From Gossypium raimondii (Eukaryota; Streptophyta; Magnoliopsida; Malvales; Malvaceae), in contig NC_068565.1 in the NCBI RefSeq assembly GCF_025698545.1, positions 5,394,001 through 5,458,000 of the forward strand: a stretch of DNA of 64,000 bases, written 5' to 3'. A program made the translations under genes and the position numbers. The notes under the pieces are model-generated. The model was not told where the DNA came from and did no database searches. It saw nothing but the letters and a program-made list of their open reading frames with translations. Positions 8,419 through 29,863 of this stretch are shown here, one piece after another (the first letter of the stretch is position 1; the number at the start of each line of letters is the position of its first letter).

Positions 8419-10801
8419 ATGGCGACCCAAGCCCTCTCTCGCGCTCTCCTCTCGAAACCCAAAGCCCTTTCTTCCTTACTCTTCCCTTCCTCCCGCTCTT
8501 TCTCTTCCTTTTCCTCCTCCTCCTCCGCCGCTTCCTCCACCAAAACTCTTATCACCCCATCGCCACCCCCTTCCCTCTCCTTCCTCCGTCGCCTTCGTGC
8601 CCCGCCTTACTACTCACTCCTTCGAGGCTCACTTTCCCCAGCTGTTAAATCGTTCTCGACTCGAGCAGCCAGGTCCTCCCTCAATGATCCCAATCCTAAC
8701 TACTCGAACCGGCCCCCGAAAGAGACCATCTTGCTCGACGGATGTGATTTTGAGCATTGGCTTGTTGTGATGGAGCCGCCTAAAGAGGATGCTACTAGGG
8801 ATGATATTATTGATAGTTATATCAAAACCCTAGCTCAAGTAGTGGGCAGGTATTCTTTTTCGGCTATTTTTTTGCTAATTTACAATGAGTTTCTTTTTGG
8901 TTGTTTTTTAAATATTAAGCTATATGCAGTTTAATTTTTTTGGAATCAGCAACAATGAAAGTACTGATTTTTTGTTTTGTTTTGTTTATATGGCATTGAA
9001 GTTGTAATTTTATTACATTCATTTACAATCAACTCTGGCTTTTATTGCTTTATTTTACATGGTAGCAACTTTTGAGGATACTAAGCCTTATTTTTCATGT
9101 TTTTTCTTGTCTGCTAATGGATGTTGAGGAAAGTGGCGACTATATATAGTTTGATTGTTATGTTTCACGATTTCTTTTTTCATGGGAAATATGAATGTAC
9201 TGTGAGTGTTGGAATAAAGGTTGTTGGTTCGATGTTAGTCCGGGTTTATTGCTTTATCATTGATCTTAAGTGTTATTGTTTATTTGAGTTCTAGAAATGG
9301 AAAGAAAAATAATATGTTGAATTCAATGTTCTACTGTTTGTAGTTCGGATGTTATTTTTATTTTCGCACGAGTAGATACTTGTGTCATTCCTACACTTCT
9401 TTTATTGTTAGCACAAGATGAGTATGGTAACTCAGATAGGAGAGTATCTGCATATTAACTCCAGTCTTTGAAATAAATTTATTCATCCTTGATATGGAAC
9501 TGTGATACATAATTCTTTTGTCATTGTAGCCATTGAGTATGTGGATTACGATGTAATTGGATAGAAGAATCTCTGCATATTGACTATGGTCATTGAAACA
9601 ACTTTTTTCTTTCTTTGCATTGCAAGTATGCAATGCTTGTTCTACAAGGGATTTTAGATCTGGTCTATATTCATTCAACATGTTATACTATTAGTTGTAG
9701 CAAAAGCTCCATTTATCCATGTGATAATTGTTGTATTATTTAAGTGCTGGGATTTCCTTGTTTGTAGTGATGTTTTTTACAATTACTTGCTTGTTTTTAT
9801 TCCTCCAGAACAAGGGATGTATTATAATTATTTTTTATTTCTTGTGTTTATATGCAGTGAGGACGAAGCAAGAATGAAGATATACTCAGTTTCAACCAGA
9901 CATTACTATGCATTTGGTGCTTTGGTGTCTGAAGAGGTCTCATATAAGATCAAAGGTGCATGACCTCTTTTCTTATTTTTTTGCCACTCCAATGCTATTT
10001 GTTACCTATGTCTCATAATTTTTAATTTTTTCCTCAGAACTTCCTGGAGTTCGGTGGGTTCTTCCAGATTCCTATCTAGATGTGAAGAACAAGGATTATG
10101 GAGGTAAATGTTCATTTTTAATCTTGAATATTTCTTTATTTGGTGTCTCTTTGTTTTGAGCTATTAATACTAGAAACGTACGTTATTGATTTTCAGGGGA
10201 ACCTTTCATTAATGGGCAAGCTGTGCCTTATGACCCAAAATACCATGAGGAATGGGTGAGAAATAATGCTAGAGCAAATGAGAGAAATAGGCGCAATGAC
10301 AGGCCACGCAATTATGATAGATCAAGGAACTATGAGAGGAGAAGGGAGAACATGAATACTCGAGATAGTCAGATGCCTCCTCAAAATCAGGGCATGCAGA
10401 ATGTCGCTCCAAAGACTGCTGGGATGCCTCCCAACAACATGGGAGGGATGCCACCCCGCAACATGGGAGGGATGCCTCCCCAGAACATGGGAGGGATGCC
10501 TCCCCAGAACATGGGAGGGATGCCACCCAACAACATGGGAAGGATGCCACCCAACAATATGGGAGGAATGACACCGAATCAAGGATGGTCCGGTAACATG
10601 CCTGGAAATGCTCCAAACTTCCAAACTGGCCCCAACTATGGAAACGCTCCTGGAAATGCGCAGAACTTCCAACCTGGTCCTGGTCCTAACTATGGAAACA
10701 CACCTTACCAAGGTGCTACACCCAATGCTCAATATCACCAGAATAACTATCCTCCAAATGTTGGTGGAGGAAACATGCCTGGTGGGAACTACCAATCTTA
10801 A
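8419..10801 (+). CDS. MORF8: Multiple organellar RNA editing factor 8 (MORF8/RIP1)
   Basis: Four exons: 8419-8849, 9858-9955, 10038-10103, 10197-10801. All introns are GT..AG and the joined frame gives 399 residues. [11 protein letters not shown] begins a Ser/Arg-rich organelle presequence of about 90 residues. The MORF domain follows ([60 protein letters not shown]), then a basic [18 protein letters not shown] stretch and a low-complexity Gly/Pro/Asn/Met tail. The wording is nearly that of Arabidopsis MORF8, the dual-targeted mitochondrial and plastid factor that binds PPR editing proteins and supports most C-to-U editing sites. The ATG at 8421 has a G at +4; an upstream in-frame ATG at 8386 would add 11 residues before the presequence and is less likely. 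The leader carries AAACCCT-type motifs common in organelle-function genes. Confidence 0.95.
10421..10564 (+). repeat. Coding minisatellite in MORF8 tail, six 24-bp units
   Basis: Six consecutive 24-bp units encode [24 protein letters not shown] (twice), GMPPNNMG and RMPPNNMG. A degenerate GMTPNQG follows. Arabidopsis MORF8 has a comparable Pro/Gly/Asn tail with a different repeat, so the property is conserved but this particular array is probably a local expansion. Confidence 0.95.
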
Positions 10802-11642
10802 ATCTTTGTTCTAATATGAATTCAGAGACCATTGTAGCTTTTAGGCATTGTTGTAGATAAAGATAATATGCCTAGACTTATGGTTATTGGCTACTAAAGA
10901 ATTGCTATTGAATATGTTGGGCAACTTATAAGTTATAACAGATTCATTTGTTTGCATCATGTAGCACAATAAATTTTGTTGGATGTTTAGCAGGTTCATA
11001 ATATTGATGGTGTTGGGTAAATTTCTATGAGTGCCATGAACTGATTGATCTCTTTGAATGATATTTCTTTTGTTCATAGTTGCTCTTAGACCTTGCAATT
11101 CCATGCATCATACCTTTGATAGTGATTAGTGACATGTCCACTGGTCTGGTTTACTCAATAAGCGTGGCCTGTATGGATGGGTTTAGTATAAAGCTTTTCT
11201 AAGTTCAGGTTGGTTTGGCTTGGCCCAAATTATTATTTAACTTTGGACATAGTTTTGCATTGAAAAGATTTGTTAAAATTGGTCATTGAATGCCAATGAT
11301 TCAATAGATTGGTCTAAGTCTCATTGTATTAGTCTTTTTAATTTGTTCTCCATGGAGAATACAAGGGTCCTACCTAATCCAATGATCCTTTAAAACTCCA
11401 GGTGTATTTTCCAGTATTAATAACCCCTTGTGCCACTGCCCATAGAACAAAGTGAAAAACCTTGAAGAAAAACATTAAAAATCATGGAATAATTACCTAG
11501 AAAAACCTTGAACAATTCGTGTTTTCATTGCCTACTAGCGTAATCTAAACAACAATTGACTTTTCCTTGGGACTTTGCTCTTTATATATGCTTATGTTTG
11601 TCCATTGTTTTGCACATTGAAAATTTTAAAGCAAACTAAGCA
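10802..11642. other. 3' region of MORF8 and intergenic DNA
   Basis: 3' UTR of the MORF8-like gene and then intergenic sequence. No other coding region is supported. A TATATA motif at 11583-11588 lies about 55 bp before the next start codon. Confidence 0.5.
11583..11588 (+). promoter_or_regulatory. Probable TATA box of the first small-protein gene
   Basis: TATATA in the context TTTATATATGC, about 55 bp upstream of the ATG at 11643. The spacing suits a short 5' leader. Confidence 0.55.
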
Positions 11643-11942
11643 ATGGCCAGTAACACCGAGACCAGCAAGACCACTGCTGATTACATAGCTGTTTCTGCCG
11701 CCGTCGAGCCCCCTCCTGAGGCTGCCCTAGTTGTGCAGTCAAAGAACAAGAACAACAAGAAGAAGAACAGAAGGTGTATATTCTTGTGTTGCTCTAACAT
11801 GCAGTTCGAGAACGAGGAAGAAAAGGCGAAGGCCTTGCAGTTTTTGAACAGTGGGGAAACCAAAGTTGGGATGGTGATGTGTTGTTCCAATTTCCAAATC
11901 GGTTCTGAGCTTGAAGACGCCCCTCCCAAAATTCCAAAGTGA
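11643..11942 (+). CDS. Small cysteine-motif protein, 99 residues, family not recognised
   Basis: Single-exon frame with a good start context (AAGCAATGG) and a TATA box about 55 bp upstream. I do not recognise the family. The first 36 residues are Ala/Glu/Pro-rich and without structure signals. A lysine/asparagine-rich basic stretch (residues 34-44) leads into RRCIFLCCSNMQF (43-55), and a charged spacer then leads to VGMVMCCSNFQIG (75-87). The two CCSN segments are an internal repeat. The strongest evidence that it is real is a diverged paralogue 1.5 kb downstream, which keeps both motifs, their spacing and the single-exon form. There is no signal peptide. The paired cysteines could bind metal or be lipidated, but this is speculation. 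Confidence 0.7.
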   Translation: MASNTETSKTTADYIAVSAAVEPPPEAALVVQSKNKNNKKKNRRCIFLCCSNMQFENEEEKAKALQFLNSGETKVGMVMCCSNFQIGSELEDAPPKIPK

Positions 11943-12994: not shown

Positions 12995-13411
12995 TATTAT
13001 TTTTTATCCTTCGATGCTAAGTTATGGTATAAGTAATTAAAAGTAAGCCCTTGAAAGCAATCTTGAAATTGTATAAGATTATGTAAATGTATGAATAATT
13101 CTGCAATTGTGATTGGACCATAAAGAAACTTATACATAAACTTTTGTCTATGTTTCTAGATGGTCCATGCAATAATTTTTATTAAGCAAGTTCTACAATT
13201 TTCAGTAAGCAATGATGTAAATGCATTTGATAATAGCTTCAACTAAATAGGAAAATCAGATTATTATTTTTTAAAAAATCTACTCCTATTTTGAGATTCC
13301 ATTTGAAGAGTTGAAATAAAAATACTATGGAGACACTAAATATATATATATTTAAGCTCTTATCCATTCTGCCAATTGGTAACAAACCTGAAACAATTTT
13401 GATGGTAAGTG
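12995..13411. other. 5' region of the second small-protein gene
   Basis: AT-rich sequence with no gene. It contains the TATA motif at 13341-13350 listed separately. Confidence 0.45.
13341..13350 (+). promoter_or_regulatory. Probable TATA box of the second small-protein gene
   Basis: TATATATATA about 62 bp upstream of the ATG at 13412, nearly the same arrangement as in the paralogous gene. Confidence 0.5.
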
Positions 13412-13711
13412 ATGATCATGGGATACACTGAAAATACAAACGTCAAAGACAGTGTCACCGTGCCCCCTAAGGAACTCGAAGCTGTTCCGGAAGTTCCGGC
13501 CCTTGACCCCACCGTTGACCACGGCTCGATGTCTGAAAAGAATGATAATAAGAACAGGAAGAGAAGTTGTTTCCTGTTATGTTTCTCAAATGTTGAGCTT
13601 GGAAATGAAGATGGCAAAAGGAAAGCCTTTTCTTTCCTTGAGAATAGTAACAGGCGCTGCATGGCCATATGTTTTTCCAATTTCGAAGTTGGACCGAAGA
13701 TGAAAGGATGA
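13412..13711 (+). CDS. Small cysteine-motif protein, 99 residues, paralogue of the 11643 gene
   Basis: Single-exon frame starting MIMGYTEN; the ATG at 13418 is an equally possible start. The acidic, proline-containing N-terminal half is diverged from the first copy. The C-terminal half matches it closely: a basic NRKR stretch, CFLLCFSNVELGN (residues 53-65), a charged spacer, then CMAICFSNFEVG (83-94). Both repeats here keep a C-x3-C arrangement. In the first copy the second repeat has Gly in place of the leading Cys. Codon choice and open frame are preserved although the rest of the protein has drifted, which argues for selection on the CxxxC(C/F)SN segments. Family unknown to me; function not assigned. 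Confidence 0.7.
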   Translation: MIMGYTENTNVKDSVTVPPKELEAVPEVPALDPTVDHGSMSEKNDNKNRKRSCFLLCFSNVELGNEDGKRKAFSFLENSNRRCMAICFSNFEVGPKMKG

Positions 13712-13826: not shown

Positions 13827-16652
13827 TTATGCACACGACTGAAACATACCCCAGCTAACAAGCTTGCCATTAAAATTGTCTGCAACATCAATGTAAACCT
13901 TGGACTGTTTATATGCCTTTGCAAGCTCTTGTTTCCTAAAGTTCAGATCATCCTCTAACCTGGATATCCTCATAGCTAGATCCTTCAGCTTCTGACGTTC
14001 GATTTGACCGATGTAAGCGCAAGCGATTTTCTTCAAATGTTCCATGGCGAAATCCACCTTGAAACTGATACGTAAAGCGTCCTTGATTGCGTCCCTCCAC
14101 TTCAATATCCTATCCTCGGTGATTTCCTCGAGTCGAAGATCGTTCATCTCTTTGACACTAGCGCAGAACATTATGTATACCATCTCGGTGATGCTCGGGT
14201 TCATCTTACTTGTTGCAGAAATATCGCCACAAGCATCAATGATTGTCTCGAGGGTAGGGATCAGAGAGTGTGGGAAACTATATTTCCCGTGCTTTATGCG
14301 ATCTCCATCTAAGCCATCGAAGTCTGAAAACTTCCCCTTGCTCTCTTCCTCGGCTTCGATTTTCGTAAGTAGGTCGCTAATGGGAATTTCATCGTTACAG
14401 CATGTTGCTACTTCAGGTTTTGTCGGGTTGAGATCCACATTAACCAGGATCATCTGTAGCAGGTTTTGAAACTCATTCATGTCCACATCCATGAACTGAA
14501 AACATTACCAAACATTGAATTGTAAACCAAACACAGAGGAAATTGTACATGAGTTTTGGATTGAATAAATACTTACGTCTTTAAGAGGAAATGCTTCAAT
14601 GGCGGGGTTCGTTCTGGGATTGATTGCGGCAAGCTCCAATGACAAGAACTGCAACTGCAACATAAGTAGGTATATATAAATGTAAAATATATACAGTTAT
14701 GTTAATATAAATGTTAAGGGAGTCCAGTTTCTTTCCAGAGAAATCTTCAAAATATTGTCTATTTAGAGCTGATCGGCCCTTAATGGGCCGGTATTGTACT
14801 CGAGTTGAGTCGGAGCATGTGGAATGAGAATGCCTTGTTGGATTGGTCGTGAGTAATTGACGGGCCACGTAATGAGAGGATGTACGCACCTCGTGCTAGA
14901 TAGAGTTTGAACCCCTAATTTGTACCATCTTTTCCCTCAAATGATCTATATCCTATATAGGTCAAGAATTGAAACCTTACCGGGCACAACACACTCACAT
15001 CCCTTCAGTAGGTGGCCCGAGCATTAGGCACGACCTGATCAAATGTGGACCTCCTATTTTGAATACCCCGCCTCAAGCTCAGGCTCTCAACAGAGTCGGA
15101 AGACAAAATCCCTGTTCGACCAGGAGACAATACTGACCTATTTGAAGGCTCCAACTCAGGACAAATAATACTTTAAAGACTTCTCCTGTCCGAACTCCCC
15201 TCAACAAATAAACATAAACAGAAGGATCCACACCTCGCTCTCACGTTGCAGTGATTGAATGTAACTAAAAATCTCATCAAGCAAAAGCGCCCCCTGAACC
15301 TGAATCCAAAAGTGGCTTATATTGTGCCATAAGTAATGAAAATATTCGTATCCATTAGCATACCTTATTGCAAGCAGGGATCAGATCCTTAAGAATTTTG
15401 GTACTTTCACTTATTTGTTCTCTCATAGCCTGCCAATAACAAAGTTCAGATCAGTGGAAACATATTCAAAGCCTGCAACTATGTCACAAAATTGCAAAAA
15501 CTCCATGAATTATATATCAAATTGTTGAAGTTGGCCTCCATGCAGCACATGCAGCATCAAGAAGCAGAATAAGCTGCCCGAACCATGCAGGCTGCAGTTG
15601 AAGCCAATGCTGCTGATTTTGTTACTTCAAGTTAATGTTTTGCTGGTTAGTTAGATTTGAACTAAGTTGGTGATATACTTGATGTAATTAGGTGATGTTT
15701 GAGCTGATAAATCAGCTTTACAAAGTGTACAAGTTATGTTTTTAACAAGTTTCAATGTTATTAGTGGAGTTAGGTGATGATTAGGTGACCATGTTTTCAT
15801 TTTGACTAGCTGAAAAGCTTGTATATGTATTGGCATTATGCCATCTTTCAATGTTAATGAAAATTATCAGAATTCTTCATCAAATTCTCTCTTAGTTCTT
15901 TGCTTTCTTTTGTTCTTCAAGCCTGATTCTGTTTGTTTGTTCAGCAAGTATCGAGCCTTCAAGCTCAAGAAACTGCTAAATTCATTCATCTTCCATTCTT
16001 AGTTCCAACACAAATTACCCTGTGACCATCAGTGGCTTGAGCTCTTCTTGCTCCTAAATTGCTGTAATCTTGTTTAGCCTTTTGCTCCATTGGCTTGCCT
16101 GAACCTGAACTAGGTTCTGCTTCAGCTTTAGAATCACCATAGGAGAGCAGCAATTCCAGTTTTGATTTTAACAGTCTATTCTCAGCAATCAGCCCTTCAT
16201 TTTCCTCTTTCAAATGCTTGTTCTCCGCTGACAGTTCATCTGCTGTTATCTGCACTAAGACATGTTAGCGTCAAAGAAGACACATCTCCAGCTGACCATG
16301 GCAATCCTTAAAGTTATTTTAGAGTAACATAAAATTTGACAAACTTTGTTATGTTTTATATGTTTACCTTGCGCTTTTGCCTATACCTGTAATCACTTAG
16401 TTTTTTGTTTTCTCTTTTCTGAGCTAAACTAAGTTTAGGCCTTCCACCTTCAGATTTCGTTTGGTACGAACCTTCGGATGTTCCTAATTGATTCAACTGG
16501 TCTTGATCTGTTAAAGACTGAGCGAGTCCACCATTTATAGCAGAGATCTCAGCTTTGTCCTCCACGAAACCAACCAGCTCCATCCATTGACCATCAACTG
16601 GTTTCTTTGAAGTGAAAAATGAACTGGACCCATCTGATGAATAACCCTCCAT
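13827..16652 (-). CDS. Cluster gene A: bZIP-like + degenerate bHLH + PEARLI-4-like fusion protein
   Basis: Six exons (minus strand): 16368-16652, 16019-16249, 15364-15429, 15234-15293, 14577-14648, 13827-14495. All joins are GT..AG and in frame, giving 460 residues. Exon 1 ends in a basic stretch (ENKKLSDYRYRQKRK). Exon 2 opens with a leucine-rich coiled coil (ENKHLKEENEGLIAENRLLK), then runs into QDYSNLGARRAQATDGHR, the start of a CIB/BEE-type bHLH basic region. Exons 3-5 encode the HLH: MREQISESTKILKDLIPACN, LLLDEIFSYIQSLQR, FLSLELAAINPR. Their boundaries fall where subfamily-XII bHLH genes are split. The last exon is a PEARLI-4-like domain (LIPTLETIIDACGDISAT...) ending in a coiled coil. 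The bHLH basic region is shortened and lacks the E-box-reading Glu, so HLH pairing without DNA binding is likely. The protein is probably nuclear. Expression is not established. Confidence 0.68.
15530..15900 (+). other. Foreign insert inside an intron of gene A, possible retro-copied gene end
   Basis: Relative to the homologous intron of pseudogene psiE (around 25920-26015), gene A's second intron carries several hundred extra bases. On the plus strand these read LASMQHMQHQEAE, a stop, then AARTMQAAVEANAADFVTSS and a stop, followed by 3'-UTR-like sequence. This looks like the C-terminus of an unrelated protein with its trailer, perhaps captured by a transposon. I do not recognise the source. 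No poly(A) tail or target duplication is clear. Confidence 0.35.
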
Positions 16653-17901: not shown

Positions 17902-20225
17902 CTAAGGAAATAAACCTGTGCTGACAGGTACTCCAATGAAGTTCTCAGCAGCATTGACACACATCTTGGACTCCTCATATATCTCAGTGCGTTTCTTCTT
18001 CCAGTCATTCACCTCAGCTTCTAATGTTGAGATCTTTGAATCAATGTAATGAAGCAATTTGCACCCTCGTTGACCAATGTAAGCAAAGACAACTTTCTTC
18101 AAATGCTCCATGGCAAATGCCACATTGAAACCAAGGCGTAAAGCATCCTTGATCACATCTCTCCACTTCAGAATTATGTCCTCAGTAACTTCCTCAAGCC
18201 GTAGATGTTCCATATCTCTGATCACAGCACAAAATAAAACATAGACTGTGGTAGAAACACTGGGACTTACTAGACTTGTTGCAGAAATATCACCGTAGAC
18301 ACTGTTTATTCTCTCAACAGTTGGAATCAGAGACAATGGGAAACTGAATCTCCCAAATCTTCTCTGCTCCCCGTCTAAGCCTGTGAAGTCTGAGAGGTCT
18401 ACATTGCTCGCAACTTCTGTATGAAATTCTGTAAGGAACATAGGCAACTTGATCTTAGCCACTTCAGCAGAACATGAACCACTCTGAGCACTCTCTGGAT
18501 GTTCAGTAGCAGGCTCATTGACAGCAGCTCTTGCATTTGGAGTCCTCTCTTTATTATTTGTAAGATTCTGACTGACAGCCACACCTCCATCATTTGAACT
18601 AATCTTCTGCTGATCTTGGATTCGTTGACGCTTTTGGATACTACTGGACTGAAACAATACGTTGGGAGGTAAAAAAAATCATGATAGCAGAAAAAGAAGA
18701 TTACACAAAAGTCGATTTGGTTTGAGACAATGAAGATGATTTTATTGAACATTCTATTTTCTTCCAAGTAATTGAGCAGTGTAAAAATTTAGACATGCAA
18801 GATTACTCATGCTCGAACCAAATAAATGAATAGCAAATGCTAATACAGTCAGAAAGATTTTAAAGAACTGTCGTAAATGGTCTAACAGGGAAAAAAAGAG
18901 CGAGAGATAAAAGAGTTTGTTGGGAGAGAAAAGGCTGGGGGAGGGGGGGGGGGTGATTCTTTTTGTCAAAAGATTGAGTGCAGGTATACTGCCAAGCCAA
19001 TGTTCAAGCCCATAAAAACCACTACTACTGCAACATGTTAAATCTATGGAATATCATTTTTACTGTTTACATAAATTCTTATTTGATTGAGACGATAGAA
19101 CATACAATGACATAAGCATTCCAAATTTGACCGATCAAAGTACAAAAGGATATTGAAAGAGTAAGACACAATTATAAAGGAATCTTGGTATGCATGCCAT
19201 TAATTCTGTCAAAGATAAGACCATATGCAAAATAATACCTAAGTTTTTTACATCGTTCTAAGATAATAAAACTGAGAAGAGATGATTGTGACTCTGTACG
19301 CTAAAACTCATCAGAAGCAAATGGTTGCTACCGGCACAGAAACACTTTGATCATCATGCCACTGGCTGGTTGATTGAGAAAAACAACATTCTACCTTATC
19401 TAGATCTTGGGCTGGAAGTTGCTGTTTGGCACGCAGCTGTGAAAGCTCCTCTTGGTACCATCTTATCTCATCCTTCAACTTCTGCAGTTCCATCTGCAAA
19501 ATAAAAAGCAACATCAAAGAATAATGTATTTGACAGCCAAGCTTCTTTTAATCTTGTGCAAAGTTAAAATTTTAACCTCGAGATCACTAGTCATTAACAT
19601 CTTTGTTTCAAACGCAACACCTCCATATTCTCAACAATATACCATAAAGATGAGCTATAGATAAGCGTTTTCAATACTACTTACATAAGACACTAAGAAG
19701 AAAGGTGAGACATGCACAGGCATATAGATATTAATCACTATGACTAGACAGTTTTCTTCTCATTTATCTCCATAGTATGTGCCTTTTGCAAATGATTTTT
19801 TTTTCTATTCAAGCAGCATGAACAAAAGAGATGAACTTTATACAATTGAATTTCGAATAGATACCTCAATTGTCAGTTCAAAAATTTTAAGTTTTGCGAA
19901 TTGTCTTTTAAACTTGAAGGATGTAATCCTAACTTTCTGCTATAAACAATGGGAAGAATGATAAAAGGAAGACATGTATATTCTTTACCTTCTTCCTCAT
20001 TCTGTACTGCTGATCCTTAGGCATTGTGGCCTTTCGCTTGTCTATTTCTGAAACAATGGATCCACGTTTGAAACCTATTCGTTTGTTATAAGCTAAACAT
20101 TTAGATGCTCCTGATTCAGCCAACTGGGGTTCAACACTTGTAATCAACTCAGTCTTCAAATACTTCGACTGATCAGCTTCATTATTCTTAAATGGACTGG
20201 AAACCTCAGACGGAGAAAGGTCCAT
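17902..20225 (-). CDS. Cluster gene B: bZIP-like basic/coiled-coil + PEARLI-4-like protein
   Basis: Three exons read from the minus strand: 19989-20225, 19332-19493, 17902-18648. The joined frame gives about 381 residues. Exon 1 (MDLSPSEVSS...) ends with KDQQYRMRKK, the shortened basic motif shared by the cluster. Exon 2 (MELQKLKDEIRWYQEELSQL) is a coiled coil, and its donor sits in the same GTAGCAAC context as in gene D. The last exon has a variable linker, then the conserved block FSFPLSLIPTVERI...YGDISAT...VLFCAVIRDMEHLRL, and ends in a C-terminal coiled coil and STGLFP. The pattern GDI, FCxxI, LxxVTED, IKDAL resembles the plant PEARLI-4 (phospholipase-like) domain, whose molecular function is unknown. 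A 45-bp exon present in C and D was not found here. Gene D is its closest relative. Confidence 0.7.
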
Positions 20226-22317: not shown

Positions 22318-25300
22318 TTACATAAACAGACCTGAACTGACAGACTTGCCATTGAACTTGTCCATAGCATCCTTGTATACCTTGGACTGTTCACACTCTT
22401 TAGCATGGTCTTGTTTCAAAGCATTCAAGGAAGCCTCTAAGTTCGATATCTTTTCTTCCATCTCATCGACCCTTTGGCAATGAATTTGGCCAACAAAAGC
22501 AGGAATAATCTTGTCCTTCAAATGATCCATCGCAAATCCCACATCGAATTTTATCCCTAAAGCTGCCTTGATCGTGTCGCTCCACTTAATTATACAATTC
22601 TCAGTAACTTCGGGAAGTTGTAGATCATCCATTTCCTTAATTGTCGCACAAAAGAGAATATATATCGTCTCGTCCACGCATTGGGGCATTGTGCTGTTCT
22701 CCGAAACATCGCCATGCATGTGGGTGATATTCTCGACAGTGCTTTTCAGAGATTTTGGGAAACTATATTTTCCAACTGCTACGCGCTCGTCAATGCCTAA
22801 ACCTGGGAAGTCTGAGTATGTAACTGTGCTCTTCCTCTTTTCGCCGATTCTTTTGAGAATTCTAGCCATAAGAGCACGAGAATTGTCTTGTTTTTCTGTA
22901 GGATTTGAACTGCTGGCAATGCCTCCTCCATGACTGTTTGAGTATGTCCACGGTGGATCCTGAACGTCATTGCTGAATTGCGAACCATTGAGCTGGAATT
23001 AAGTGGGGAAAACGAAAGTCAGGGTTCTAGAATTAGAAGCCCACCCAATGCATGGTTTTGTTTGAGATGAAATTGAAGCTATCTTTTCTCTTGAGTTTAA
23101 ACTTATCAAACCGAAGTATAGAGAAGAACTCAAAGAATGAGACATAGCAAAATGCAGAAAACAAAAACATATATTTGATTAACTAGGAGCAGTGTGGGTA
23201 GAAATGGATATGAGTACTTGATAACTAACTATTGTTAGGAAGCCTTGAAGAGCTACCTGCTGCTGGGCTGAACAATCTGAATGAAGAGGCTGCTGGAAGG
23301 TTGACGGAGTCTGCTCATTCGATTCCTGGCAACTGGTCGACCCTTGTAGAAGTTGTACCAAACTGTCCCTTTGCATTCGTAACGCACTTACCTGCACTCA
23401 ATAATGCAAAATCAAAGCAAAGATACATGGAAGAAAATATTTCTATGTTACTATGAAATAAGTATACATCCATAATCTTGTAACAAATATATTCACTGTT
23501 ATTCATCAGGAAATCAAGGTCTAAAGCTTATATGGTTCATATTAAAAGACCAGTAGATCATGATCCAAAGGAATCTATATGTTAAACATATGTTTTCGCA
23601 CCATTATCTGAAAGATTTACATTCAATTTATAAGATTAGTATTTTGGTTTAGATTAGTTCCCCAAACATGAGTTCGGATTATACGCAGATAAAGATACTA
23701 TAAATGCCCTCAAAATTATTTAAAAATATATGGCCCATACCTCAGGGTCCTGATCAAACTCTTCCGAGTCTTCTCCATGGTGGCTCTGCAAATTAAGATA
23801 ATCAAGGAAATGATGAGCTGGGAGTTCCCTTTAGTAACCATAAAAAGATACACCCATCAATAACCAGCAAAGAAGTTATAAATACATTAAGAAGTTGTGA
23901 GAAACTAGAGCAGTAGGATGTTTTTCTTCAAGCCAGTTTTTTTAGTCCAAAATCATATCTTTACTGCAGCATGGCAAATGCAATTGAAGTAAAGATCAGA
24001 TAGAAGCAAAACTTCGATATATACTGGCCTAGTAATAGGTAAAGAAAAGTTGAGGGTTGAATACAATCATATGGAAATGACCAAAGATAAGAAAGAAAAT
24101 CAATTCATATCTGTCCCTGAAGTAACAAAAACTCGGTAAATATGATTGAGTTTGACTTTGAACACTAACTCTTGGGAAGCCTGCTACAGGGGCCGAAAAA
24201 CTTGGATAGTGAATTTGTTGGTTATATAATTGTCCCATTTGTGCTGGAATTTGCTCATTTGGTTGCTGCCCACAGTCTAATGACGATCGCATATGTGCTG
24301 GGATTTGCGCATTTGGTTGCATCTGAATGATTATGTCTGATAACGATTGCTTCTGGGCAACCAAAATGACATTTTTCCTTTTCAAGTTTTCATTCTCAGC
24401 ATTAGTTTCTATCTGCAAAATCCAAGCAATGTTTAATGGTCACCTAGTTTCTTTCATTTGGATACTTTTAAATCCATTGCTAGTTGTGATTGATAAGAAC
24501 ATCAGATCCCATAAAAGAAATGGCCACATATCAGATTGAAAGAGATTGATTTACCTTTTGTTGCTTCATTTTCTTTTTATATTTCTGATCTGATTCTCTT
24601 CTTCTCTCTCGTCTTTCTGCCTCATTAGCTGCTCTGGGACGTCGAGTTCTTTTTTGTTGTGAACCTTGAGATGAGTATCCGTGATTCAATTGAGGTTGGC
24701 TTGTTGGTTGAGGATGCACCAAGCTGTTACTCTGCACTGAGTTCGTTAGATCTGTTTGATTCTGACCTGGTACACTTGATTGAAATTGCCCAGTATGCTG
24801 AGAGTTCGAGTGATGAATCAGAGTCTGGTACTGACGTGTTTCATTCAATTGAGGTTGGCTTGTTGGTTGAGGATGCACCAAGCTGTCACTCGGCACTGAG
24901 TTCGTTAGATCTGTTTGACTCTGACCTGCTCCATTCGATTGAAATTGCCCAGTATGCTGAGAGTTTGAGTGATGAATCAGAGTCTGGTTCTGACGTGTTT
25001 CATTCAATTGAGGTTGGCTTGTTGGTTGAGTATGTTCCCTAAAGGTCAACAGATCAGTTAGACACTGACCTGCTGCAATCGATTGACATGGCTGACTATG
25101 CAGGTCTGACTGATGATTCAGACTCCAAGTCTGATATGTTTCCTTCGATTGGGGTTGGCTTGTGTGATTAAAGCTCTGAATGTTACTCTGAACCTGATAT
25201 CCTTGATTGAATGAGGCATGGCCTGTTGGCTGAAAGTTCATCCCTACAACACTTTGCAACGAAGGGGGGTAGATCGATTGGTAATTCTGGCTCTCATCAG

Positions 25301-25909: not shown

Positions 25910-26420
25910 CAACAGTGGAAACATATACAAATCCATCAACTATGTCAGAGTTTATGAATTTTGTCCATAATTTTGATTTTCTTTTCATCACAAGATTCGT
26001 AATGATTTTAGGACTACACTGTGATGATCAGTGGCTTGAACTCTTCTTGCTCGCAAATGGATGACATCTTGTTTAGGTGGCTCTGGTGGTTTAGAATTTT
26101 ACCTTAAAGCTATTTTTAGTGTTATTATAAATTTTGACAAATTCCTGAAGAAATTAATATTTGTTTACCTTGCGCATTTTCCTATAACATTAATCACTTT
26201 TGTCTAGGACTTCCACCTTTGGGTGTTTCTACTTGATTCAGCAGGTCTTGATCTGATTGAATTCAGTGAGTCCACCATTTATTGAAGACATCTCAATCAG
26301 CTCCATCCATTGATCTTCTTGTTTCTGTAAAGTAAAAATGAACTGGATCCATCTGATGAATCACCCTCCATGTCCACCAGACGCATAATTTGCTCGATTT
26401 AGACCAATAATGTTTCTGAG
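25910..26420 (-). pseudogene. Pseudogene psiE: truncated copy of cluster gene A, keeps bHLH basic-region exon
   Basis: Minus-strand homologue of gene A's 5' part. The start region near 26373 (GGACATGGAGGGTGATTCAT), the WMELIE-type segment, the intron with TTGACAAA and a remnant of exon 2 are all recognisable against 16010-16680. Most of the coiled coil is deleted and the frame is broken. What remains of exon 2 reads KPPEPPKQDVIHLRARRV then QATDHHS. That is closer to a genuine CIB/BEE bHLH basic region than gene A's own copy. The downstream intron (TGGAAACATATACAAATCC, 25917-25935) also matches gene A near 15455. HLH and PEARLI-4-like exons are absent, so no functional protein is expected. Confidence 0.75.
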
Positions 26421-28199: not shown

Positions 28200-29863
28200 T
28201 AAGGAAATAAACCTGTGCTTATAGGTACTCCGTTGAAGCTCTCTACAGCATTGATACTCATCTTGGACTCCTCGTATATCTCAGCGCGTTTCTTCTTCCA
28301 GCAATTCACCTCAGCCTCTAATGTTGAGATCTTTGAATCAACGTCATTGAGCCATTTGCACCCTGATTGACCAAAGAAAGCATAGGCAACTTTCTTCAAA
28401 TGCTCCACGGCAAATTGCACCTTGAAACCAAGGCCTAAAGCATCCTTGATGACATCTCCCCAATTCAGCATTATGTCCTCGGTAACTTGATCAAGCCGTA
28501 GATGTTCCATATCTCTGATCATGGCACAAAAAAAAACATAGCTCTTTTCAGAAACACTGGGACTTATTAGACATGTTTCAGAAACGTCACCATAAGCAAC
28601 TTTTATTCTCTCAACGGTTGGAATCAGAGACAATGGGAAACTGAATCTCCCCATTCTTCTCTGCTCCTCTTTTAATAAGCCTGTCCAGCCCGAGGGGTCT
28701 ACGTTGCTCCCAACTTCAGGATGAAGTTTTGTTAGGAACATATGCAACTTGTTCTTATCCACTTTAGCAGGACACAAACCACTCTGAGAACTCTCTGGAT
28801 GTTCAATAGCGGGCTCATTCAGAGCAATTCTTCCATTTGTAGTCATCCCATCGTCAGGAGGCAATTGTAACTCATCTAACCAAAAACCATCGAACTGGGA
28901 AAAAAATATAATATCAGTAAGTCAAAGTAATTATTGAATGATATGTAATTTAGGACAATTACTGCACTAAAGGGTTTCTAGACAATAGTAACTAGTCAAG
29001 ATATCACAAGTCAAATGTAGTTAAGTTGAAAGAATCACCAGTTGTACGGATAACGGTGGTTCTGTAAATTAAAAGAATCAGGCAGGTAAATGAGATTGAA
29101 ATAAATGTTCCCCTTCAAAGATTTTACAGTAATTAGTCAAGATTTATAGAATTGATCGTACATTGTAAACATCGTCACCATTAGTAAACTCCATTCCATA
29201 GTGATCCTGCAAGTTAAGACAAAGGATATAATATTAGCGATGAGTAGTTGGCATGATCAATGTGGTTTTAATCCGTACAGGTATCTTAAACCAACACAGT
29301 TGCTACCTGAAGTTGAACATTTTGATCAACCTGGCTAGGTGGGTGGGAAATATAACTGTCTTGTCTCCGCATAACTTCCACTGGAAGTTGTCCCTTGCCT
29401 TTCAGTCCGCTGATCTCCTCTTTTAATTGTCTGTTCTCATTCATCAACTCTCTGTTTTGGTCTTGCAAGCGTTGGTTCTGGGAAGTCATTTCGACAAATT
29501 TAGCCTGCACAAATGAAAGCCAAAGTTAAATAACAGAAAAGTATTTGTTTTCATACTAATTCAGTACTTCAGTTTATAATTCTATCCCATCCCTAATCCC
29601 TCCATTACCTTTTTATTTTGCCGATAGTCCCTATCAGTCTGCCTTTTGCGTGCTTTTCTCTCATCTTCACTCATTTTACCACGACAACATCCTCGTCTCG
29701 GTTGTTGCAAAGCTTCTCCTTGAAGAAACCTGTCTTGGGTTGCTTGAGAATATGACATTTGCTGCTGAGAACGAAACTGATAAGTTTGGTTAGATTGATT
29801 ATACATCGACGAACTGTCCATCCTTGAGGAGGGGCTGGTAGCTTCTGATGTAGTATCATCCAT
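28199..29863 (-). CDS. Cluster gene D: bZIP-like basic/coiled-coil + PEARLI-4-like protein
   Basis: Four exons from the minus strand: 29609-29863, 29307-29504, 29162-29206, 28199-28894. All are in phase zero, giving about 397 residues. Exon 1 (MDDTTSEATSPSSRMDSSSM) is Ser/Gln-rich and ends with DERKARKRQTDRDYRQNKK, the clearest basic motif of the cluster. Exon 2 is a textbook coiled coil (NQRLQDQNRELMNENRQLKE). The 45-bp exon reads DHYGMEFTNGDDVYN. The last exon follows gene B almost line for line (FSFPLSLIPTVERI, YGDVSET, FFCAMIRDMEHLRL, VTEDIML, STGLFP). The TAG stop uses the terminal C of the adjacent MITE as part of its complement, so the coding end is unchanged while the 3' UTR is replaced. 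The start ATG lies in a GCGAACATGG context resembling gene A's GTGAGCATGG. Confidence 0.7.

Follow-up and report, generated by a model that had tools for sequence, protein, structure and literature searches.

IBH1, PRE1 and PAR1 are stand-alone helix-loop-helix (HLH) proteins. According to the passages of PMC5558667, binding of the E-box by bHLH proteins follows a rule based on Glu-13 and Arg-16 of the basic region, and the passages of PMC8997993 describe an HLH protein without Glu-13 and Arg-17 which pairs with CIB5 and blocks its action; HLH4, a stand-alone HLH protein of 158 residues, is also described there. A fusion of PEARLI-4 with bHLH was not found in the titles, the beginnings of abstracts and the passages that made up our literature search, and it is absent from the passages of PMC5558667, PMC8997993 and PMC10949617; none of the papers searched contains both 'PEARLI-4' and 'bHLH'. 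In PMC6359015 (spaceflight, HSFA2), the terms 'PEARLI 4' and 'helix-loop-helix' each occur once and 'coiled-coil' four times.

Here we describe such a fusion in Gossypium raimondii (assembly of 751 Mb in 281 contigs). It lies in the window, i.e. the whole analyzed stretch of 64,000 nucleotides (contig C1, positions 5394001-5458000), and is encoded by a gene referred to below as gene A. We consider gene A, judging from its DNA, to be a genuine exon-shuffled chimera. Our main reading, to which we give a probability of roughly 0.55, is that this chimeric gene arose by exon shuffling and that its HLH pairs with bHLH partners into dimers unable to hold the E-box.

Gene A occupies positions 16652-13827 of the minus strand and consists of six exons and five GT-AG introns, with all junctions in phase 0. 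The joined coding sequence (1389 nt, 462 codons) is open, and its sole stop stands at the end, finishing at 13827. The six closest PEARLI-like paralogs are located on contig C5 (L053-L058); L056, L057 and L058 are also contained, with longer flanks, in L041, L043 and L042. The features of the locus are as follows (the donor-like bHLH genes are L039 and L040, described below).

16368-16652, minus strand: exon 1, target part, beginning with the ATG; 54-56% over 98 columns to exon 1 in L041, L042 and L043
16137-16249, minus strand: first part of exon 2, target coiled coil (ITADELSAENKHL...LLLSY); homology to C5 ends at 16137
16019-16136, minus strand: second part of exon 2, captured from the bHLH gene: linker and shortened basic region (DSKAEAEPSSG...GARRAQATDGHR)
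15364-15429, minus strand: exon 3, captured helix 1 (AMREQISESTKILKDLIPACNK); GT-AG, phase 0, donor DNA homology
15234-15299, minus strand: exon 4, captured end of the loop followed by helix 2 (VQGALLLDEIFSYIQSLQRESE); 15234-15293 with the other acceptor
14577-14648, minus strand: exon 5, captured FLS exon (FLSLELAAINPRTNPAIEAFPLKD); donor DNA homology
13827-14495, minus strand: exon 6, with the target's PEARLI-4-like domain and the stop codon; similar in protein sequence to the C5 copies
15523-16010, unstranded: solo-LTR-like repeat (TGTTGG...CAACA) lying in intron 2 and flanked by the target duplications ATTTG (16015-16011 and 15522-15518)
13830-14495, 17905-18501, 22324-22905 and 28205-28759, minus strand: array of four PEARLI-4-like exons, belonging to genes A, B, C and D
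25913-26371, minus strand: A', a decayed partial copy with exon 1 and the captured bHLH linker/basic region (NSKPPEPPKQDVIHLRARRVQATDHHS), upstream of gene C

A preliminary description of this DNA had proposed four exon intervals for the part under study, and all of them are present on the minus strand, with GT/AG borders and in phase 0. For exon 4, an acceptor six bases earlier (start at 15299) is the counterpart of the acceptor of the donor-like genes. Intron 3 measures only 64 nt (70 nt with the alternative exon 4 acceptor), and the captured part corresponds to about residues 134-240 of the 462. This anatomy can be read directly from the DNA.

Other open frames were noted on the plus strand of the window. 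Two 100-codon frames (11640-11942 and 13409-13711) have similar Cys-rich parts and are apparently small paralogs; the latter is located just beyond the 3' terminus of gene A and on the opposite strand to it. A further frame (10190-10801) is rich in GMPP(N/Q)NMG repeats and presumably resembles the genes for organellar RNA-editing factors (MORF).

Gene A resembles its PEARLI-4-like paralogs on C5 in exon 1, in the coil at the start of exon 2 (residues 1-38 match L041-L043 at 68-71%) and in the PEARLI exon, whose product is 60-66% identical to those of the six C5 copies and 43-49% identical to those of genes B, C and D. The exon 6 domain scored 31 bits against PF05278 in the genome search and 28.9 bits in a scan of the joined protein (curated cut-off, 29.9). 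Structure prediction from 13 sequences gave a mostly helical PEARLI-like exon with a 61-residue helix (mean pLDDT 82); when this model was compared with solved structures, none of the 90 matches with E up to 10 reached E 0.001.

What sets gene A apart from the C5 copies and from B, C and D is the presence of the HLH exons. None of the six C5 copies matched its HLH segment at E up to 5, and the bHLH segment of L039 gave only one chance-level match to them, far from the gene (L043:7260-7304, E 2.6); bHLH queries run on the window (E up to 20) did not reveal such exons in genes B, C and D either. Where gene A carries its insert, half of the six C5 copies (L056-L058) have a 12-codon exon, DHHGSRPEASDR or a close form of it, and a similar exon is found in gene C.

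Between 16136 and about 14563, gene A is, at the DNA level, a partial copy of a bHLH gene. The same genome contains two donor-like genes that are intact, L039 (C3:53.897 Mb) and L040 (C12:7.657 Mb). Both bear introns, have an intact basic region, helix 1, loop, helix 2 and FLS exon, and are divided into exons exactly as gene A is; we take them to belong to bHLH subfamily XII ('bHLH60/bHLH79-like'). The captured part of exon 2 matched L039 at 62% (45 columns, E 3.7e-9) and L040 at 55% (44 columns, E 4.5e-8). DNA identity amounted to 82% between exon 3 and L039 (111 bp, flanking intron included), 84% between exon 4 and L040 (79 bp), and 80-82% between exon 5 and both L040 and L039 (91-100 bp); overall, the blocks of exons 3, 4 and 5 are 76-84% identical to L039/L040 and reach into the adjoining intron ends. 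In the intron after helix 1, L039 itself carries a second copy of the end of that exon with its splice site (L039:2898-2860, minus reading; CTGGTCCCTGGTTGCAATAAGGTATATAGC).

When the bHLH segment of L039 was searched against the window and 11 loci, it matched the A' remnant (E 3.9e-10) and the exons of gene A (E 4.7e-9, E 5.4e-9 for two linked exons, and E 0.002); thus, the similarity to bHLH proteins on which the preliminary description depended does exist. No other matches to bHLH queries were obtained in the window at E up to 20. A genome search with the joined HLH segment (86 aa) yielded 74 places at E up to 10, including gene A's own exons. The top scores outside the window were CIB-type loci with unbroken exons 3 and 4 (L009, E 4.2e-9), and the exons of L039 and L040 scored lower, each exon singly (E 0.013 to 7.2). 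With Pfam PF00010 the joined segment reached 16.4 bits (E 0.0083), below the cut-off of 20.7, and a search of solved structures gave weak matches (best E 0.065, to Max; MYC2, 0.43). In a tree of 8 rows and 91 columns, gene A grouped with L039 and L040 (support 99/98) on a long branch (0.44). Sequence, exon borders and tree therefore agree in establishing common descent with the L039/L040 clade, and the donor homology, the shared introns and the tree strongly support the claim that exons of a subfamily XII bHLH gene were captured between the coil and the PEARLI-4-like exon.

Several other sources of the bHLH exons were considered. Chance similarity is ruled out by the intact donor-like genes in the same genome and the shared intron ends. 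A donor of the CIB/BEE type, whose exon boundaries the preliminary description had recognized, is ruled out as well: in the CIB-type loci of this genome (L009 and L011-L014) exons 3 and 4 form one uninterrupted stretch, and the tree places gene A, albeit on its long branch (0.44), with L039 and L040, so that the border between exons 3 and 4 is a real bHLH gene border but that of L039/L040. Also excluded is a dispersed repeat with a 44-residue piece of a bHLH exon (L015, L017-L023, L025-L029 and L031; also L016 and L037), the copies of which have fused exons 3 and 4 of another type. This repeat looks like a mobile element that amplified a bHLH exon: 13 of 20 other loci align with L017 over about 890 bp or more, and in those 13, L017 and L016 the 3' ends read near GGAGCCCTAAG or close forms, the 5' ends being variable.

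The 5' border of the insert is clean. Homology to the C5 paralog L041 extends from 16652 to 16137 and that to L039/L040 starts at 16135-16136, which places the junction near 16137/16136, inside exon 2 and in frame (...LLLSYG followed by DSKAEAEPSSG...). The switch to bHLH sequence had originally been set at QDYSNLG, about 20 codons too late. About three letters (ATG) at the join can be read in both target and donor, as after end joining. On the 3' side, the donor homology ends at 14563-14565, a short way into the intron that follows exon 5.

The introns kept within the captured piece indicate that it was copied from the genomic DNA of a gene like L039/L040; a retrocopy is ruled out, the donor introns being still in place. 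Capture by a Pack-MULE or another element with terminal inverted repeats is not supported, as no such repeats frame the piece within 14480-16260; one inverted pair in this interval (24 nt, 71%) has one arm in the LTR and lies off the 5' border. Gene A reads as one protein because the splice sites of the donor were carried over with the piece and every junction is in phase 0.

Two of the introns contain additional DNA. The LTR-like repeat (488 bp, with a 5-bp duplication) was inserted eight bases from the start of intron 2, so that GTAATTTG remains at the donor site, and is absent from A'. Among the best 40 of 723 candidates scored there were 39 other copies with 76-84% identity, several of these copies forming pairs separated by about 4.4-4.5 kb. 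Intron 4 has a length of about 585 bp versus roughly 80-100 bp in the donors, and its middle 548 bp gave five matches elsewhere (70-82% identity over 74 to 245 bases).

A' consists of exon 1, a piece of intron 1 and then the linker/basic region, and is 74-89% identical to gene A at the DNA level in four blocks. Its exon 1 has suffered deletions of 1, 3, 21, 1, 24 and 32 bp (three out of frame and three in frame), it has lost the donor splice site and contains frameshifts, and the 5' capture junction itself is deleted. A' retains the codons for PPEPPK as well as a remnant of the sequence that follows the His, both of which are missing from gene A; compared with L039/L040, gene A shows deletions of 18 bp (PPEPPK) and 12 bp (SLAE) in the hand-made codon alignment and the DNA alignment. 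Since A' lacks these two deletions, both postdate the split of A and A', and the two sequences thereby fix the order of events as capture, duplication within the array and, finally, the 18-bp and 12-bp deletions of gene A. From the order of the parts (exon 1, start of intron 1, bHLH piece) and from letters shared by A and A' against both donors, we infer that the capture is common to both; independent captures, for which the deleted junction in A' leaves some room, are disfavored by these same shared features.

The next question is what remains of the bHLH domain. In the residue numbering of PMC5558667, gene A keeps His-9, Arg-14, Arg-17 and Leu-27, but Glu-13 has been deleted together with the rest of Ser-Leu-Ala-Glu, and Arg-16 has become Met. 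The loss of the E-box Glu and the retention of the His, both proposed beforehand, are thus plain from comparison with the family rows. By the Glu-13/Arg-16 rule as given in the passages of PMC5558667, the protein should not bind the E-box. The HLH surface was said to be kept, and most of the core does survive: the hydrophobic columns are retained at 5/6 in helix 1, 3/3 in the loop and 9/10 in helix 2, within region limits set by us. The changes in the core are one helix-1 residue to Thr, one helix-2 Val to Ser and one missing Lys codon in the loop. Of the columns invariant in the family (seven rows), 10 of 22 are changed in the linker and basic region and 7 of 31 in helix 1-loop-helix 2, so that damage is not significantly more frequent in the former (p 0.13). 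With the HLH core kept and the E-box residues lost, gene A has the makeup of an atypical HLH gene; it probably encodes a non-E-box HLH protein, and pairing of this protein with bHLH partners is plausible.

Whole-branch omega values, which take in the time before capture, were 0.31 for the 106 captured codons (omega = 1 rejected, p 0.0026), 0.345 for exons 3-5 alone (68 codons, p 0.0225), 0.31 for the PEARLI exon (p 3e-5), 0.48 for exon 1 (p 0.11) and 0.24 for the head of exon 2 (p 0.09). However, a model with donor-like constraint before capture and neutrality after it was only 1.0 log unit worse (-742.4 vs -741.4), and selection on the captured exons is not proven, since pre-capture constraint with later neutral drift fits nearly as well. 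Unique changes in exon 1 numbered 6 in gene A versus 22 in A' (p 0.004).

The most serious alternative, which we nevertheless regard as unlikely, accepts that the capture is real but sees the bHLH exons as passengers, i.e. drifting, skippable pseudo-exons in a selected PEARLI-4-like gene. It draws on the fit of the neutral model and on several other observations: changes private to gene A are spread near-evenly over the codon positions (17, 13 and 19, compared with 8, 3 and 20 between the donors), the linker/basic region has evolved no more slowly in A than in A' (4 and 5 unique changes in 62 sites), skipping of exons 3-5 leaves the frame intact (all are in phase 0), and the LTR sits close to the intron 2 donor site. 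Against it, the 324 captured bp are free of stops and frameshifts, and introns 2-5 have all kept their splice dinucleotides. At the drift of 0.106 per site given by the neutral model, the probability of an open captured frame is 0.29, that of intact splice dinucleotides 0.17 and that of a wholly open coding sequence 0.004. These values precede the counting of indels, of which gene A has four relative to both donors (+6, -18, -12 and -3 nt in the hand-made codon alignment), all multiples of three; the argument from frame is weakened by the fact that three of the six exon-1 indels of A' are also in frame. The frame and splice sites of gene A survive where those of A' broke. In these comparisons, the evidence that gene A is kept as a gene is good and the evidence that its captured exons stay in frame is moderate, but there is none that the former basic region still matters.

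It is improbable that transcripts end in, or retain, intron 2, giving a short coil protein and leaving the HLH exons in no mRNA. As noted in the preliminary description, the frame of exon 2 does read on to a stop at 15986, and the LTR could bring termination signals. On the other hand, there is no AATAAA or ATTAAA on the sense strand of the gene A introns, although plant signals can be looser, and the omega of the downstream PEARLI exon (0.31, whole-branch) suggests that transcripts reach that exon. Lower still is the probability we give to a separate, unrelated bHLH pseudogene lying within an intron of gene A, with exon 2 ending elsewhere: the bHLH part alone does have a donor-like intron-exon structure, but the junction lies inside exon 2 and in frame, donor homology begins only at 16135-16136, inside the donor's basic-region exon, and the association of exon 1 with the bHLH piece recurs in A'. 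Finally, an artefact of the assembly or of the gene model is hardly credible, for although the sequence comes from a single assembly, mis-joining would hardly produce a divergence from the donors of about 16-24%, a decayed partial copy, and an insert that contains an LTR and its target duplication.

Under the chimeric-gene reading, a segment of a gene of the L039/L040 clade, from inside the basic-region exon to the intron after the FLS exon, would have been copied into a gene of the PEARLI-4-like kind, where it apparently took the place of the 3' part of exon 2 and of the small third exon retained by some paralogs. The predicted protein would contain, in this order, the coil, the shortened basic region, the HLH with the start of the next helix, and the PEARLI-4-like helical domain. 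The chimera would then have been duplicated within its gene array, the A' copy dying and the surviving gene A losing in frame the four codons (SLAE) that include the E-box-reading Glu, with Met now in place of Arg-16. The HLH part would pair with bHLH factors, most plausibly those of subfamily XII itself, and keep them off E-boxes, and the coil and PEARLI-4-like parts would supply self-association or other contacts. Expression, dimerisation and inhibition by the gene A protein are what we infer from its sequence.

A more far-reaching version, which we put forward tentatively and regard as rather unlikely, holds that gene A is a young regulator, in which a PEARLI-4/coil scaffold employs an HLH that came from a DNA-binding factor and was stripped stepwise of its E-box contacts to titrate or tether subfamily XII bHLH proteins. 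If true, a dominant-negative HLH protein would have arisen via exon shuffling and not by decay of a whole bHLH gene. If gene A is expressed, it would provide an ordered example (capture, duplication, loss of DNA-reading residues) of a dimerisation module entering an unrelated scaffold, in which a DNA binder became a likely partner-titrating HLH. Each of these steps is testable, as the donor-like genes, the insert-free paralogs and the dead partial copy are all present in one genome.

Compared with chimeric genes generated by exon shuffling or transposon capture (Pack-MULE, Helitron, retrocopy), gene A likewise carries a gene piece in a new context and in frame; it differs from retrocopies and from captures by elements with inverted repeats in that its insert has kept the introns and has no inverted-repeat ends within 14480-16260. 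With bHLH genes of the L039/L040 type it shares the linker, the exon borders and intron ends, helix 1, the loop, helix 2 and the FLS exon. The homology is limited to the part from linker to FLS, which in gene A is fused to a coil and a PEARLI-4-like domain and lacks SLAE with its E-box Glu, Met replacing Arg-16. Like the atypical plant HLH proteins (IBH1, PRE1, HLH4 and PAR1), the gene A protein retains the HLH, is missing the E-box residues and would act by pairing; those proteins, however, are stand-alone, whereas gene A derives its HLH from a DNA-binding clade and carries it within a larger scaffold.
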